NCBI RefSeq assembly: GCF_017352095.1
Contig: NZ_CP071463.1
Location: 806,001 to 870,000 of the forward strand
Direction of reading: 5' to 3'
Source: Natrinema longum
Lineage (GTDB): Archaea > Halobacteriota > Halobacteria > Halobacteriales > Natrialbaceae
Length of the DNA: 64,000 nt
The position numbers and the translations under genes were made by a program. Under the pieces are notes generated by a model, which was not told the DNA's origin, searched no databases, and was given only the letters and a program-made list of their open reading frames with translations. Shown piece by piece: positions 14,825-22,246 of the stretch (the stretch's first letter is position 1; each line of letters starts with the position of its first letter).

Positions 14825-14909
14825 CGGAATGATCGAGTGACGGACGGGATTGCTCCGTGCGCCCCGGTCGTATCGTCAACTTTTACTCCCTTACCCTCCG
14901 ACCGTCGAC

Positions 14910-15479
14910 ATGGATCAACTAAAGCAGTCTCTCCTCGAGGCTCCGATCATCGAGAAGAACGGATACCATTACTTCGTTCACCCCATCAGCGACGGCGTCC
15001 CGAAGCTGGATCCGACCCTGTTGCGCGAGATCGTCATCCGAATCATCCGCAAGGCGGAACTCGAGGAAGTCGACCGGATCGTCACCCCCGCAGCGATGGG
15101 GATTCACATCTCGACTGCCGTCTCGCTGATGACCGACATTCCGCTGACCGTCATCCGCAAGCGCCAGTACGGCCTCGACGACGAGGTCGCGATCGCCCAG
15201 AAGACGGGCTACTCGGAGAACCAGATGTACATCAACGACGTCCGCGAGGGCGAGCGCGTGCTCGTGCTCGACGACGTCCTCTCGACGGGTGGCACGCTCG
15301 CGGCGGTCCTCGACGCGCTCGGCGAGATCGGTGCCGAAGTCGTCGATACGGTCGCAGTCATCAAGAAGGTCGGCGGCGAAAACAAGGTCGACGACGCCGG
15401 CTACGACGTCAAGACGCTGATCAACGTCGACGTCGTCGACGGCGAGGTCGTCATCATCGACGAGGAAGGCGACCAGTAA
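14910..15479 (+). CDS. hpt: Hypoxanthine/adenine phosphoribosyltransferase
   Basis: The 189-residue enzyme salvages purine bases using PRPP. The PRPP-binding signature [13 protein letters not shown] lies at about residues 113-125, and the N-terminus ([20 protein letters not shown]) and [17 protein letters not shown] match the archaeal Hpt group. The ATG at 14910 is preferred over an upstream start because it gives the usual family length. It is cytoplasmic. Hpt and coaBC lie near each other on the same strand, with a regulator between. Confidence 0.92.
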
Positions 15480-15655: not shown

Positions 15656-17302
15656 ATGGCAGGGAATAGTGTCGGACTGGGGGGACGAGGGTACCGTCGG
15701 CGTTCGGTTTTGCGGGGAGTCGGCGCGGCCGGGATCGGTGGACTGGCCGGCTGTATCCGTTCCAACGACGGGACCAAAGCGGAGGGGGACGCCGAGAAGT
15801 TGATCAAAGCGGGGTTCGCGGAGACGGGGGTCGAACCGCCGTTCCGGACGACGATCGCCATCACCGAGGACGACGAGCGAGAGCAGTTCGCACAACTGTT
15901 CAAGGCGACACTCGATGGAACGGGCTTTTTCGACGTCTCGATCGACAGTCAGGAGTTCCGATCGCACGTCGATCTGATGCGGAACGCGGCCGCCAGGGAC
16001 GTAAACGCCATGTTCGTCGCGAGTTGGACTGGCGGGTGGGACCCGGACAGCTACGTCAATATGCTGTTTCACTCGGACAACCATACCCCCAACGGGTTCA
16101 ACGTCGGCCACTACGCAAACGAGGCCGTCGACGACGGCATCGACGCGGGCCTCGTGGAAACGGACCCCGACGAACGGATCGCCATCTACCGGCGACTACA
16201 GGAAACCCTGGTTGCTGACTCGCCGATATCGTTCGTTCGGTTTAGCGAATCCACCCACGTCTGGGACGCCGACACCGTCAGCGGCTGGCAGACGTATCCC
16301 CTCGAGCCGGGCGCGTACTACGCCGTGTACGCCCCCTGGGCCGGGACCTACACGGAACTCGACGACGGCAGCGAGTTCGTCGGTGATCTCGGGAGCGACA
16401 TCGCGACGACCGATCCGGTCTCGATGACCGACACCGTGTCCAGTCACGCGACGGCACTGGTCTACGAGGGACTCGTCGCCGTCGATTTCGACGGCGAGAG
16501 CCAGCCGTTGTTGGCCACCGACTGGGAACGACTCGACGGGACGACCGTTCGGATGCACCTCAGGGAGGGCGTCCAGTTTCACAACGGCGAGGAACTCACC
16601 GCAGCACACGTCGCGGGCTCGTTCGAACGCTACGAGGGCACGCTCCGGGAAACGGACGTCTACGACTGGTACGAGGGAAGCGAGATCGTCGACGATCACA
16701 CCATCGACATCGAGTGCTGGCGGGAGTATGGGCCCCTCGAGACGGCGCTTTTCAACGTCCCGATCGTCCCGATGGCGGCGATCGACGGCGAGCACGACCT
16801 CGAGTCGGAGCCGGTCGGAACCGGCCCCTACCGATTTGGCGACTACGACAGCGGCAGCCACTGGCGACTGGAACGGTTCGACGATCACTGGTTCGAGGGA
16901 GACGACACGGTTCCGTCGACGGCACCGGTCGAAACCGTCACGCTCGAGATCATCACGGAGACGGCGTCCAGACAGGCCGCACTCGAGGCCGGCAACATCG
17001 ACTTCAGTTACGGTCTCCCGTCGGCAAACGTATCCGAGTTCGAAAGCGACGGCGCGTACGGCGTCGGTCGCCACATCGGCGGCGGGTTCGATATGGTGAT
17101 CTATCCCTGTTACCGAGCGCCGTTTACGAGCGCGAAGGTTCGCCGGGGCTGTAACATGTTGCTCCCGCGTACGGAAACGCTCGAGACCGTCTACGACGGG
17201 GTCGGTCAGCTGGCTTATACGCCGATCTCGCCGCTGCTCGAAGCGTACAGCGACGAGACGTTCCAGGAGACGATCGCCGACGAATACGTCCGTCAGAACT
17301 AA
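15656..17302 (+). CDS. Peptide-type ABC transporter substrate-binding lipoprotein, apparently circularly permuted
   Basis: The 548-residue protein has a Tat lipoprotein signal (YRRRSVLRGVGAAGIGGLAGC, Cys at 33). Family-5 binding proteins normally begin with the LVYEGL/FHLR-GV-F-DG-LTA region and end with a DPDSYVNMLFHSDN region. Here the order is reversed: residues about 42-228 match the usual C-terminal part (LIKAGFAETGVEPPF, GGWDPDSYVNMLFHSDN, VSGWQTYPLEPG), then about 230-548 match the usual N-terminal part (SSHATALVYEGLVAVDF, MHLREGVQFHNGEELTA, GTGPYRFGDY). The protein ends ADEYVRQN, where the C-terminal half would normally continue. Both halves are intact and it heads the dpp-like operon, so it is likely functional. 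Ligand is probably a peptide. Confidence 0.85.
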   Translation: MAGNSVGLGGRGYRRRSVLRGVGAAGIGGLAGCIRSNDGTKAEGDAEKLIKAGFAETGVEPPFRTTIAITEDDEREQFAQLFKATLDGTGFFDVSIDSQEFRSHVDLMRNAAARDVNAMFVASWTGGWDPDSYVNMLFHSDNHTPNGFNVGHYANEAVDDGIDAGLVETDPDERIAIYRRLQETLVADSPISFVRFSESTHVWDADTVSGWQTYPLEPGAYYAVYAPWAGTYTELDDGSEFVGDLGSDIATTDPVSMTDTVSSHATALVYEGLVAVDFDGESQPLLATDWERLDGTTVRMHLREGVQFHNGEELTAAHVAGSFERYEGTLRETDVYDWYEGSEIVDDHTIDIECWREYGPLETALFNVPIVPMAAIDGEHDLESEPVGTGPYRFGDYDSGSHWRLERFDDHWFEGDDTVPSTAPVETVTLEIITETASRQAALEAGNIDFSYGLPSANVSEFESDGAYGVGRHIGGGFDMVIYPCYRAPFTSAKVRRGCNMLLPRTETLETVYDGVGQLAYTPISPLLEAYSDETFQETIADEYVRQN

Positions 17303-17311
17303 TCACGATTA

Positions 17312-18259
17312 ATGTCGCTCGGCAGATACGTCTGCAAACGGCTGTTGGTCACCGTTCCGGTCCTCGTGGGCGTTACGGCGCTGACGTTCTCGTTCGTCCA
17401 CGTCCTGCCGGGCGATGCGGTCGACGCGATCGTCGGGTACCGAGACGTCGCACCCGGGACCGAAGCGTCGATTCGAGCCGAGTATCGCCTCGACCGACCG
17501 GTTTGGAAGCAGTACCTGCTGTGGCTGTGGGACGCCCTCAGCCTCGAGTTCGGGCGGTCTCCGATCACCGGCCGACGCGTCGCGGCGACGATCGGCCGGC
17601 GACTTCCCGCGACGCTCGCGCTCGGCGGGGCTGCGTGGCTGCTCGCGCTCGCCATCGGCGTTCCGGCCGGTATCGTCGCCGCGGTCAGACAGGGCGAGCC
17701 GGCCGACGAACTGAGTCGGCTCGCTGCACTCGCGGGCATCGCGACGCCGAACTTCTGGCTCGGACTCGTCTTGTTGCTGGTCTTTAGCGTCCGGTTGGGC
17801 TGGTTCCGGGTTATTCCTCCCGACGCGCCGCTCGTGAGTCTCGCGATGGCGAAATTCATGATTTTACCGACGCTCACGCTCGGAACGGCCTCGGCCGCGT
17901 TCGTCACGCGATTGCTTCGATCGTCGATGCGACGGGAACTCGACGCGGCGTACGTTCGAGCCGCACGCGCGAAGGGATTACGTGAGCGAACCGTGATCCT
18001 GAAACACGTGCTGCGAAACGCTTTGTTGCCGGTCGTGACGGTCACTGGGATCCAGTTGGCGTTCCTGATCGACGGTGCGGTCGTCGTCGAACAGATCTTT
18101 TCCTGGCCCGGCATGGGACGGCTGCTGGTCCGATCGATCCTGCAGCGAGACTATCCGGTCATCCAGGCCGGGGTCTTGCTCATCGGCGTCACGATCGTCC
18201 TCGCGAACCTCCTCGTCGACATCGTCTACGCGGTACTCGATCCACGCATCCGATACTGA
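17312..18259 (+). CDS. dppB: Dipeptide/oligopeptide ABC transporter permease, DppB type
   Basis: The 315-residue membrane protein starts MSLGRYVCKRLLVTVPVLVG, followed by a large loop and five further membrane segments, the DppB/OppB layout. The ATPase-contact (EAA) loop is at about residues 205-225 (ELDAAYVRAARAKGLRERTVI). It begins 9 bases after the binding-protein gene and 3 bases before dppC, so it is translated with them. It forms half of the membrane channel. Confidence 0.92.
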   Translation: MSLGRYVCKRLLVTVPVLVGVTALTFSFVHVLPGDAVDAIVGYRDVAPGTEASIRAEYRLDRPVWKQYLLWLWDALSLEFGRSPITGRRVAATIGRRLPATLALGGAAWLLALAIGVPAGIVAAVRQGEPADELSRLAALAGIATPNFWLGLVLLLVFSVRLGWFRVIPPDAPLVSLAMAKFMILPTLTLGTASAAFVTRLLRSSMRRELDAAYVRAARAKGLRERTVILKHVLRNALLPVVTVTGIQLAFLIDGAVVVEQIFSWPGMGRLLVRSILQRDYPVIQAGVLLIGVTIVLANLLVDIVYAVLDPRIRY

Positions 18260-18262
18260 ACT

Positions 18263-19318
18263 ATGAGTGACCGACAATCCACCACCGAACGCGGCCAGAT
18301 CCGTATCGTCGGCTTCGACGATGCGGCGTCGCGTTCGGCGACGGCGACGGCAGCGACGAGCGAGACAGACTCGACGGAACCGGGACGCGGTCGCCTCGAG
18401 AACGCATGGGTTCGGTTCCGGCAGAATCGTGCGGCGATGGGTGGGCTGGTCGTGCTCGGCGTGATGGCAGCGCTTGCGATCTTCGGCCGGCCGATCGAGG
18501 TGTCGACGGCGGAGTACACGCTCACGCTCCAGCCGTTCGCGCTGGCTCCCCACGACCCCCACGAACCGTTCGTCGGGCCGGCGAACGCGCCCCCCTCCTG
18601 GTCGCATCCGTTCGGAACCGACTGGGCGGGACGCGATCAGTTCGCCCGCGTACTCGTCGGCGGCCGCTACACCCTCGGCATCGGCCTCGTCGCCGTCGCG
18701 GTGGCGCTGTGTATCGGGATCCCCCTGGGTGCGATCGCGGGCTATTTCGGCGGCTGGGTCGACGAAGTCATCATGCGACTCGTCGACGTGCTGTACGCCT
18801 TCCCGTTTCTGGTCCTGGCGATCGCGATCGTCCCGATCCTCGAGCCGGTGCCGATCCTCGACGGGGGTATCTGGACGGTGGTGATCGCACTCGGGATCAC
18901 CGGCTGGCTCAGCTACGCTCGACTGTTACGCGGCGAAATCCTCTCCGTGCGGGAACGCGAGTACGTCACGGCTGCCAGAGCGCTCGGCGTCCCGGATCGG
19001 CGGATCATTCACAGACACGTCGTGCCGAACGCGATCGCGCCGGTCGTCGTGCAGGCGACGCTCAACGTCGGCACGGTCGTCCTCACGGCAGCGGCGCTTG
19101 GCTTTCTCGGCCTCGGTCTCGAGCCCGGGAGCGCGGAGTGGGGTGCGATGCTCTCGCGAGGTCGTGACACGCTCGTGCAGGGGTACTGGCACGTTACCGT
19201 CTTCCCGGGTGCGGCGATCTTCCTGTTCGTGCTGGCGATCAACCTCGTCGGGGACGGGATCAACGACGCGCTCGATCCGGGTCGAGACGGCAGCGACGAC
19301 CGGAGGCGGATGCGCTGA
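18263..19318 (+). CDS. dppC: Dipeptide/oligopeptide ABC transporter permease, DppC type
   Basis: The 351-residue protein has a polar N-terminus of about 45 residues, a first membrane helix (AMGGLVVLGVMAALAIF), an extracytoplasmic segment with PFGTDWAGRDQFARV, and then about five helices. The EAA loop is near 230-250 (EREYVTAARALGVPDRRIIHR). This is the DppC/OppC subunit. Its stop overlaps the dppD start (TGATG), showing tight coupling. Confidence 0.92.
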   Translation: MSDRQSTTERGQIRIVGFDDAASRSATATAATSETDSTEPGRGRLENAWVRFRQNRAAMGGLVVLGVMAALAIFGRPIEVSTAEYTLTLQPFALAPHDPHEPFVGPANAPPSWSHPFGTDWAGRDQFARVLVGGRYTLGIGLVAVAVALCIGIPLGAIAGYFGGWVDEVIMRLVDVLYAFPFLVLAIAIVPILEPVPILDGGIWTVVIALGITGWLSYARLLRGEILSVREREYVTAARALGVPDRRIIHRHVVPNAIAPVVVQATLNVGTVVLTAAALGFLGLGLEPGSAEWGAMLSRGRDTLVQGYWHVTVFPGAAIFLFVLAINLVGDGINDALDPGRDGSDDRRRMR

Positions 19319-20400
19319 TGGCGCTGCTCGAGGTCGAGGATCTCGTCGTCCAGTTTTACACCGATGACGGCGTGGTTCGGGCGGTCGACGGGATCAGCTA
19401 CGAGATCCGGGCGGGCGAGACGGTCGGGCTGGTCGGCGAGAGCGGGGCCGGCAAGAGCGTCGCCAGCCTCGCGTTGCTTCGCCTGATCCAGGCACCCGGC
19501 GAGATCGTGAGCGGCGAGATCCGATTTCAGGGACGGGACGTCCGGGAGTGCTCGGCCGAGGAGCTCAGAGCGATTCGGGGCAACGAGATCGCGATGGTTT
19601 TCCAGGACGCCGAGGCGGCGCTCGACCCGGTCTACACGGTCGGCGAACAGATCGCCGAAGCGGTTCGTGCCCACGACGACGTTACCGACACCCAGGCCCG
19701 CGAGCGGGCGATCGATCTTCTCGAGCGGGTCGGCATCCCGAACCCGGCGACGCGGTACGCGGACTACCCCCACGAGTTCTCGGGGGGAATGCAACAGCGA
19801 GTCGTCATCGCGATGGCGCTGTCCTGCGATCCCGCCTTGCTCGTCTGTGACGAGCCGACCACCGGGCTCGACGTCACCGTCCAGGCCGGCATCCTCGAGT
19901 TGCTCGACGACCTCGCCCGGGAGTCCGAGACGGCGATCCAGCTGGTCACCCACGACCTGGGGATCGTCGCCGAGTTATGTGACCGGGTGGTCGTCCAGTA
20001 CGCCGGCGAAATCGTCGAGCGCGCACCGGTCGAAGCGCTGTACTACGATCCGAAACACCCCTACACCGTCGGGTTGCTGGCCTCGATCCCCCGACTGGGC
20101 GACGACAGCGAGCGTCTCACGACGGTGCCCGGAACGACGCCATCCCTCGTCGATCCGCCGACCGGCTGCCGGTTCCACCCGCGCTGTCCCTACGCCGAGA
20201 CGGCGTGTGCCAGACGCGCGCCGCCGCTCGTCGAGACCGACTCGGGAACGCCAGCCGCCGACGCCGGTCCCGAGACGCACCTCGCCGCCTGCCTCGAGTA
20301 CACCGGCGACCTCGAGGAGGGGCTGGACTACGACGTTCAGGTCCGAGACGAGGGCGGCGGAATCGATCCCGACCCGGAACGGCGAGGTGAGTCGGGATGA
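19318..20400 (+). CDS. dppD: Dipeptide/oligopeptide ABC transporter ATP-binding protein, DppD type
   Basis: The 360-residue ATPase has Walker A GESGAGKS (about residue 40), signature SGGMQQR (about 155), Walker B LLVCDEPTTGLD (about 177) and a switch His in TQLVTHD-like sequence. The C-terminal oligopeptide-transporter region has the FHPRCPYA Cys motif at about 285, where Cys residues can bind an iron-sulfur cluster in this family, and a further 60 acidic residues. It overlaps dppF by four bases. Confidence 0.92.
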   Translation: MALLEVEDLVVQFYTDDGVVRAVDGISYEIRAGETVGLVGESGAGKSVASLALLRLIQAPGEIVSGEIRFQGRDVRECSAEELRAIRGNEIAMVFQDAEAALDPVYTVGEQIAEAVRAHDDVTDTQARERAIDLLERVGIPNPATRYADYPHEFSGGMQQRVVIAMALSCDPALLVCDEPTTGLDVTVQAGILELLDDLARESETAIQLVTHDLGIVAELCDRVVVQYAGEIVERAPVEALYYDPKHPYTVGLLASIPRLGDDSERLTTVPGTTPSLVDPPTGCRFHPRCPYAETACARRAPPLVETDSGTPAADAGPETHLAACLEYTGDLEEGLDYDVQVRDEGGGIDPDPERRGESG

Positions 20401-21719
20401 CGGCGACGAGCGACGAGACACTCGTCCGAGCCGAGGGGCTCGAGAAATACTATTCGTCGACCGACGGGATCCTCGATCGGCTGCTCGGCCGCGGCGAGAC
20501 GGTCCGGGCGGTCGACGGCGTCGACCTCGAGATCCGCGAGGGGGAGACGCTCGGGCTCGTCGGCGAGAGCGGCTGCGGGAAGACGACGCTTGGCCGAGCG
20601 CTCGTCGGACTGCTCGAGCCAACTGACGGGACGATCTCCTATCGCGGGACCGAACTCGCCGACCGCTCCCGGTCGGAACGCCGGGCGTTGCGGACCGAGA
20701 TTCAATATCTCTTCCAGAACCCGATGGCGAGCCTGAACCCACAACTGACGGTCGACGAGATCGTCGGCGAGGCGCTCGCAGTTCACGACATCGTTCCTTC
20801 AGGGGAACGTGACGCGCGCGTGCGCGAGTTGCTCGAGACGGTCGGGTTGCAGGCCGACCACGCGACTCGGTACCCACGCGAGTTCTCGGGGGGCCAGCGC
20901 CAGCGGATCGCCATCGCGCGTGCACTCGCCGTCGAACCCGAATTCGTCGTCTGTGACGAACCGGTTTCGGCACTCGACGTCTCGGTGCAAGCGCGGATCC
21001 TCAACCTGCTTTCCGACCTGCAAGCGGAGTTCGGACTCTCCTATCTGTTTATCGCCCACGATCTCTCCGTCGTCGAACACATCGCCGACCGGGTCGCCGT
21101 CATGTATCTCGGCGAGATCGTCGAAACCGGGACGACCCCCGAGGTCTTCGACGATCCGTCACATCCCTATACCGAGGCGCTGTTGTCGGCGATTCCCGAA
21201 CCCGATCCCTGCTGGGAGGGCGACCGGATCGTCCTCGAGGGGTCGGTGCCATCGCCGACGGATCCCCCCTCCGGGTGTCGGTTCCACACGCGCTGTCCGC
21301 AGCTCGTCCCGCCGGCGGCGTACGATATCGATGGTGAGACCGTCCGTTCGATCATGGCGCTTCGAACCCGACTCGCCGAGGCGAATGCGGACGCGGGCCT
21401 CGACGCACTGTACTCGAGAGCCGACGGCCCCGAGGACCGATCGGCAGCGCTCCGGGACGCGACCGGGATTCCCCGGCGGCTCTCCGACCCGAACGCGGAG
21501 GCCGCCTTCACGAACGCCCTCGAGCCCGCGATGGACGGCGATCTCGAGGCCGCACGACGGCGTCTCGCCGAAGCGTTCGAGACGCCCTGCGAAACGACCG
21601 AGCCGGAACTGGCCGCGGGGGCAGCCCAGCACCCGATCGCCTGCCATCGGTTCGACGAGCGATTCGAGGGCGACGACCGGGGCGGGGGAGACGGCCCCAC
21701 TCGAGAGGGACGACGATGA
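20397..21719 (+). CDS. dppF: Dipeptide/oligopeptide ABC transporter ATP-binding protein, DppF type, with extended C-terminus
   Basis: The 440-residue ATPase has Walker A GESGCGKT (about 57), signature SGGQRQR (about 165) and Walker [13 protein letters not shown] (about 183), with the RFHTRCPQL Cys motif near 300. After that point it continues for about 130 residues ([19 protein letters not shown]... [14 protein letters not shown]... HRFDERFEG), longer than bacterial DppF. Overlaps of four bases with dppD and with the next gene show one operon. Confidence 0.92.
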
Positions 21720-22246
21720 GACGGATCTACCAGTCTCGCGCGCTCGAGCGCGCGGACGACGAGCCGTTCGCCCCCGGTGGCCTCGAGGACGACGAGCCAA
21801 CCGCTCGAACGATCGACTGGGCGGCGTTCAGCCACGCGGTCACCCCGACGGCAGTTCGCCACCGGGCGATCGACGTCACCGTCTCGACGGAGAGACGCCG
21901 GTACGAACCCGGTGACCCAGTCGAACTCCGCATCGAGTTTCGGAATCGCCTCCCGATCCCCGTCCGGATCCGGACCGAGTCGCCGAACCGCTGGCGGTGG
22001 CGGGTCGACGGGCTTCGCGAAGCCTCCCAGGTCCCGCGGGCCGTTCCCGACCGACCCGCGATCTTTTCGTTCGCACGAAACGAACGGAAACGCTTCCGTC
22101 GCCGGTGGCCCCAGCGGATCCGGGTCGCCGACGACGAGTGGGTGCCCGTCGATCCCGGAACCTACACCATCGACGTCGGTGTTACCCGCGCGGACGCCAG
22201 CGCTCGCGGACTCGTCGATCGAACCGAAATCGAGATCGTGGAGTGA
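21716..22246 (+). CDS. Beta-sandwich protein at the end of the peptide transporter operon
   Basis: The 176-residue protein has no signal peptide and no membrane segment. From about residue 55 it is rich in beta strands (YEPGDPVELRIEFRNRLPIPVRI, DDEWVPVDPGTYTIDVGV), similar in style to BsuPI-type proteinase-inhibitor/Ig-like domains. It overlaps dppF in an ATGA, so it is made with the transporter. It may assist the transporter or protect against peptidases, but this is conjecture; the family is not recognised with certainty. Confidence 0.6.
   Translation: MRRIYQSRALERADDEPFAPGGLEDDEPTARTIDWAAFSHAVTPTAVRHRAIDVTVSTERRRYEPGDPVELRIEFRNRLPIPVRIRTESPNRWRWRVDGLREASQVPRAVPDRPAIFSFARNERKRFRRRWPQRIRVADDEWVPVDPGTYTIDVGVTRADASARGLVDRTEIEIVE

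Follow-up and report, generated by a model that had tools for sequence, protein, structure and literature searches.

A circularly permuted family-5 substrate-binding protein, predicted to be a lipoprotein, heads a peptide/nickel-type ABC importer operon in Natrinema longum

The window analyzed here is a stretch of 64,000 nucleotides from the genome of Natrinema longum. The gene at 15656–17302 on the plus strand encodes a protein of 548 amino acids in which SBP_bac_5 (PF00496) is the sole Pfam family, matched in two separate stretches. The neighboring genes described here lie on the same strand. Upstream, and outside the transporter, is an archaeal hypoxanthine/guanine phosphoribosyltransferase gene (14850–15479) identified using NCBIfam HPT_Archaea (250 bits, cut-off 200) and synteny; a purine phosphoribosyltransferase gene precedes the operon in the Natrialbaceae loci examined. 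Downstream are a DppB/NikB-type permease (17312–18259; PF00528 and PF19300, with Opp2B at 325 bits, below its cut-off), a DppC/NikC-type permease (18263–19318; PF00528 and PF12911), a DppD-type ATPase (19318–20400; PF00005 and PF08352 oligo_HPY) and a DppF-type ATPase (20397–21719; PF00005 and PF08352). A substrate-binding protein (SBP) followed by two BPD_transp_1 permeases and two ATPases with oligo_HPY tails makes up a peptide/nickel (Dpp/Opp/Nik) importer operon, and the Pfam and NCBIfam matches across 17312–21719 agree with the intact dppBCDF-like operon proposed in an earlier, sequence-only reading of this DNA.

The operon closes with a 176-amino acid ORF (21716–22246) that is conserved in position. 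It had no match at E≤0.001 in a Pfam and NCBIfam search. Identity at the equivalent place in other genera is 46–68%, and ∼48% in a Haloplanus operon with an unpermuted SBP, such that the ORF is shared by orthologous operons whether or not their SBP is permuted. In the DppF-type ATPase, ∼135 residues at the C-terminus extend past the oligo_HPY region and are without Pfam coverage.

Inspection of the ORF, its coordinates, the twin-arginine motif, the lipobox Cys33 and the sequence motifs found all of them as the sequence-only reading had described. The whole protein scored 181 bits with PF00496 against a gathering score of 32.4, which places it in the family by homology. None of the curated NCBIfam cut-offs for the DppA, OppA, NikA and GsiB equivalogs was reached, the best score being 127 bits where 600 was required. 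When the two blocks were examined separately, residues 45–232 matched profile positions 272–365 (E = 4.8e-5) and residues 236–548 matched positions 3–260 (E = 4.9e-47). The protein does not follow the profile in one collinear pass from 1 to 368, as positions 272–365 precede positions 3–260. A profile built from 36 haloarchaeal sequences, used on the stop-to-stop ORF that begins 8 codons upstream of the ATG, aligned residues 62–225 with model positions 377–534 (83 bits) and residues 241–546 with positions 59–365 (244 bits). The swapped order of the halves is far beyond chance. The sequence-only reading had placed the halves at residues 42–228 and 230–548; the swap itself stands, while the alignments move the boundaries slightly, to 45–232 and 236–548.

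The protein can be divided into five segments. Residues 1–33 (15656–15754) are a twin-arginine signal peptide ending at the lipobox cysteine, and residues 34–44 (15755–15787), outside both homology blocks, form a short linker between the lipid anchor and the block that now comes first. Block 1 (residues 45–232; 15788–16351) is the canonical C-terminal half, comprising the second part of domain III (lobe 2) and the C-terminal strand of domain I, as identified by PF00496 272–365 and 40% identity to Haloplanus. The junction YTELDDG (residues 233–239; 16352–16372), located by alignment to the canonical proteins L045 and L051, connects the former C-terminus with the former start of the mature protein; YAPWAGTYT is joined directly to ELDDGSEFVGDLGS. 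Block 2 (residues 240–548 plus the stop codon; 16373–17302) is the canonical N-terminal half, with domains I–II and the first part of domain III (PF00496 3–260; 48% identity to Haloplanus). It ends at the point where canonical proteins go on with YDPEqA.eLL (EEH-QGYDPEQ-ARELL in L045).

The marks of a Tat lipoprotein, RRR at residues 15–17 and AGC33, are found in 34/34 cut-A permuted proteins. By its RR motif and lipobox cysteine the window protein is a predicted haloarchaeal Tat lipoprotein. Its signal peptide can be aligned with the signal peptides of canonical relatives and was thus retained, not gained anew, which contradicts the earlier suggestion of a "fresh" signal peptide.

The unpermuted form of this gene is found in Haloplanus ruber, where the canonical protein L045 heads the orthologous permease-permease-ATPase-ATPase operon. 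Window residues 238–544 aligned with L045 residues 37–343 at 48% identity, and residues 46–238 aligned with residues 351–543 at 40% identity, both without gaps. A second canonical protein, L051 (G075), aligned in the same swapped manner at 44% and 28% identity. The N-terminal block did not fit the N-terminal part of its relatives when the halves were aligned separately, an alignment that the sequence-only reading had proposed. L045 and L109 (G111) have the same operon as the window protein but the canonical order, with both termini in lobe 1. The operon order SBP-B-C-D-F(-ORF176) also lies behind canonical L045, L051 and L162, with transporter genes that are 56–72% identical. Since an orthologous operon follows both canonical and permuted SBPs, the permuted gene replaces the canonical one in place. 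The unpermuted relative at the head of the orthologous operon in H. ruber therefore argues for circular permutation in place, not for fusion or an assembly error.

Fusion of the halves of two different paralogues, lying side by side, would yield the same swapped order, although no tool result favors such a chimera. Trees of each half separately put both halves beside the same canonical proteins, L045 and L109, and both halves align without gaps to one canonical protein; single partners likewise account for the permuted proteins L078 (with L132) and L183 (with L190). Because the half-trees are concordant, we regard a chimeric origin as highly improbable. In a circular permutation, a single protein supplies the homologue of each half, the halves stand in reverse order, the old termini are joined and nothing essential is missing, and this is what was found.

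The permuted order is present in most Natrinema genomes searched (66–95% identity), in other Natrialbaceae (43–51%) and in two species of another family (42–45%), so that relatives with the same permutation, which the sequence-only reading had proposed to look for, do exist. The nearest named relative is Natrinema ejinorense (95% identity). The only split copy is in Natrinema versiforme, where the gene is broken into two frames; relatives with two separate genes were looked for and no others were found. This copy could be taken as a sign that the permuted order is an assembly or rearrangement artefact, or that the gene is a decaying pseudogene. In N. versiforme JCM 10478 (L044 7551–7569, also L052 and L033), CTGTCTCTTATACACAT followed by N lies inside the permuted SBP gene. 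The sequence resembles, and is presumably, a truncated Nextera adaptor; the split coincides with it and is probably an assembly scar. The same order occurs in >20 separately assembled genomes at 42–95% identity, the window genome is a single contig of 3.59 Mb, and dN/dS of the permuted gene is 0.22–0.29 with both halves constrained. An artefact or a pseudogene is thus given almost no weight. Circular permutation, by comparison, is borne out by the profile order, the gap-free halves against an unpermuted orthologue, the concordant half-trees, conservation and purifying selection.

The window protein very probably serves a peptide/nickel-type ABC importer as its substrate-binding lipoprotein, a functional member of family 5 (Cluster C) in circularly permuted form, its function being a prediction. 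In OppA-like canonical members of Cluster C, domain I (lobe 1) contains both termini and domain III is uninterrupted (PMC5736914, PMC11192437). By homology, the permuted chain would take up the usual fold of a two-lobed clamp, the termini having been joined within domain I and the cut made within domain III (lobe 2). No segment of the clamp would be lost; domain I would be less interrupted, and domain III would be divided between the two ends. The ligand may be peptide-like or related, and the protein would dock on permeases of the DppBC type. Physically, the chief difference would be a lipid anchor that pulls on lobe 2 rather than lobe 1. AlphaFold2, given an alignment of eight sequences (the window protein and seven relatives), returned a pLDDT of 35.8. 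Among the PDB sequence matches listed, no solved structure stays collinear with the permuted chain across more than a single half.

The predicted change of the anchored lobe might suit a protein that has ceased to be a transporter subunit and taken on another role, such as that of a sensor or scaffold. We consider this very unlikely, as all genera examined still have the permuted SBP as the first gene of an intact permease/ATPase operon, and the canonical form occurs in orthologous operons.

Duplication is the standard expected route to a circular permutation. The gene may have arisen by tandem duplication and fusion via flexible linkers, followed by loss of the N-terminal half of the first copy, with retention of its signal peptide, and of the C-terminal half of the second copy. 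The anatomy fits the tandem duplication and loss of outer halves proposed earlier, though not the new signal peptide that went with it, which is the family's own. No fused tandem intermediate (N-C-N-C) was seen among the sequences analyzed.

The window genome encodes three permuted and three canonical family-5 proteins, the latter matching PF00496 in one pass. Outside the window, L005 and L007 (G000:C1:777970–782533) form a tandem pair of permuted genes of the cut-B type, and the tandem recurs in many Natrialbaceae genomes. The canonical haloarchaeal profile sorted the fetched SBPs, with duplicates removed, into 82 permuted and 56 canonical proteins, a set that is enriched for permuted proteins and is not a frequency estimate. 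In the 547-position model the cut sites are ∼365|376 (window group and L084/L091), 379|384 (L078 group) and ∼384|392 (cut-B), all within the same ∼40-residue stretch of lobe 2.

Matches to the cut-B protein L007 were found in 73/116 Halobacteria genomes, and the inspected rows keep its order. In bacteria, where plasmids are the sole source of the evidence, permuted proteins were also identified in Ketogulonicigenium, Maritalea and Nitratireductor (alphaproteobacterial, cut-B), and full-length collinear matches reach Microvirga, Neorhizobium and Roseomonas; Sulfitobacter and Thermomicrobium controls have the canonical order. Like the window protein, the cut-B proteins (the pair at 778–782 kb in the same genome, L046–L050, Ketogulonicigenium KVU_RS15710 and Nitratireductor DEJ54_RS20240) have their halves swapped behind a signal peptide, and the bacterial ones inspected are in similar transporter operons. 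They differ from it in a cut ∼20 residues further on and, by AU test, in having a separate origin. The Nitratireductor protein is also without a lipobox, which weakens the idea that Tat export or lipid anchoring is a requirement for permutation. On the Ketogulonicigenium vulgare plasmid (L156 5683–7359), the permuted SBP and its transporter operon lie between hydantoinase/oxoprolinase and peptidase genes, neighbors that hint at a pyroglutamate/hydantoin or peptide-related substrate.

L078 is assembled as a signal peptide plus L132[499–679] plus L132[79–497], at 59% and 69% identity, with the cut at 497|499 of canonical L132. Its order was seen full-length in about 19 genomes. Between the orthologues L183 (permuted) and L190 (canonical), identity is 73% in each block and rises to 81% across the signal peptide; either the order changed recently in this pair or it reverted.

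The number of origins was examined using trees in which permuted sequences had been cut and rejoined into canonical order. On the 32-row tree the order must have changed five times, four of these changes being forced by well-supported branches, and 0/200 bootstrap trees had a single change. Trees built from one half or the other give the same result for the decisive placements, and the permuted proteins L084 and L091 are placed among canonical L129, L117 and L114. The AU test rejected a single clade of all permuted rows (p = 3.9e-58). It also rejected joining the window clade with cut-B (p = 7.5e-5), with L084/L091 (p = 1.8e-6) or with L078 (p = 2.6e-36), the first two joins having included L036. 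In an enlarged set, the window-type proteins as one event were not rejected (p = 0.24), while the L078-type proteins as one clade were (p = 5.7e-7), and thus the order has changed or reverted even inside the L078 group. L036 (G042) had been considered as a separate event (AU p = 0.035), but this was dropped, since one window-type origin gave p = 0.24 with more sequences and p = 0.34 with the operon tree.

There have been at least four changes of order among family-5 proteins, other lineages having permuted independently at nearly the same place; the count assumes that the canonical order, which is that of every solved family-5 structure matched, is ancestral, and some changes could be reversions. 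One ancient permutation, inherited vertically or spread horizontally, might instead lie behind all permuted family-5 proteins, with the canonical ones among them as reversions. The placement of all cuts within ∼40 alignment positions is consistent with this, as is canonical L190, which is nested among permuted proteins of the L078 group. Against it, the AU tests reject joining the permuted groups, the cut points differ (∼365|376 in the window group versus ∼384|392 in cut-B), and an equally complex reverse event would be needed several times. A single ancient origin is therefore considered unlikely.

Compared with canonical family-5 proteins (PF00496; DppA, OppA, NikA and GsiB; Cluster C), the window protein has homologous halves and the same operon context, and haloarchaeal members share its type of lipoprotein/export signal. 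It differs in the opposite order of its halves, new termini in domain III, and a predicted lipid anchor on lobe 2. No paper on permuted family-5 proteins was found in the open literature, to which the search was largely confined, and no curated family or solved structure for the permuted form was found. Among naturally permuted binding proteins, the closest precedent is TpMglB-2 (Tp0684) of Treponema pallidum, an ABC binding protein that has kept ligand binding and has been given the proposed designation 'Type Ic/Cluster Bc' (PMC4990184). TpMglB-2 is an anchored lipoprotein, as is predicted for the window protein, but it is a Cluster B (type I) glucose binder of another fold class in which the relocated piece is limited to the end of the chain, three N-lobe strands. 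The window protein does not belong to Type Ic/Cluster Bc, as Pfam and PDB sequences gave only family-5 matches.

A circular permutation in nature is commonly regarded as an ancient event that is rare and happened once. In family 5, one large two-lobed fold has been cut several times in the same stretch, with permuted and canonical orthologues that are up to 73% identical. Permutation at one lobe-2 loop may be a recurrent, possibly switchable state of archaeal and bacterial family-5 proteins, making up a widespread 'Cluster Cc' class. We offer this tentatively and hold it somewhat less probable than not. If it is true, docking on the transporter, or release by it, would differ from that of canonical members because the anchor hangs from lobe 2. 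Order-sensitive annotation reads the permuted proteins as partial matches. Natural pairs allow one to ask how placement of the termini, folding order and anchor position affect a Venus-flytrap binding protein, and L183 and L190 are an ideal pair for such an experiment.
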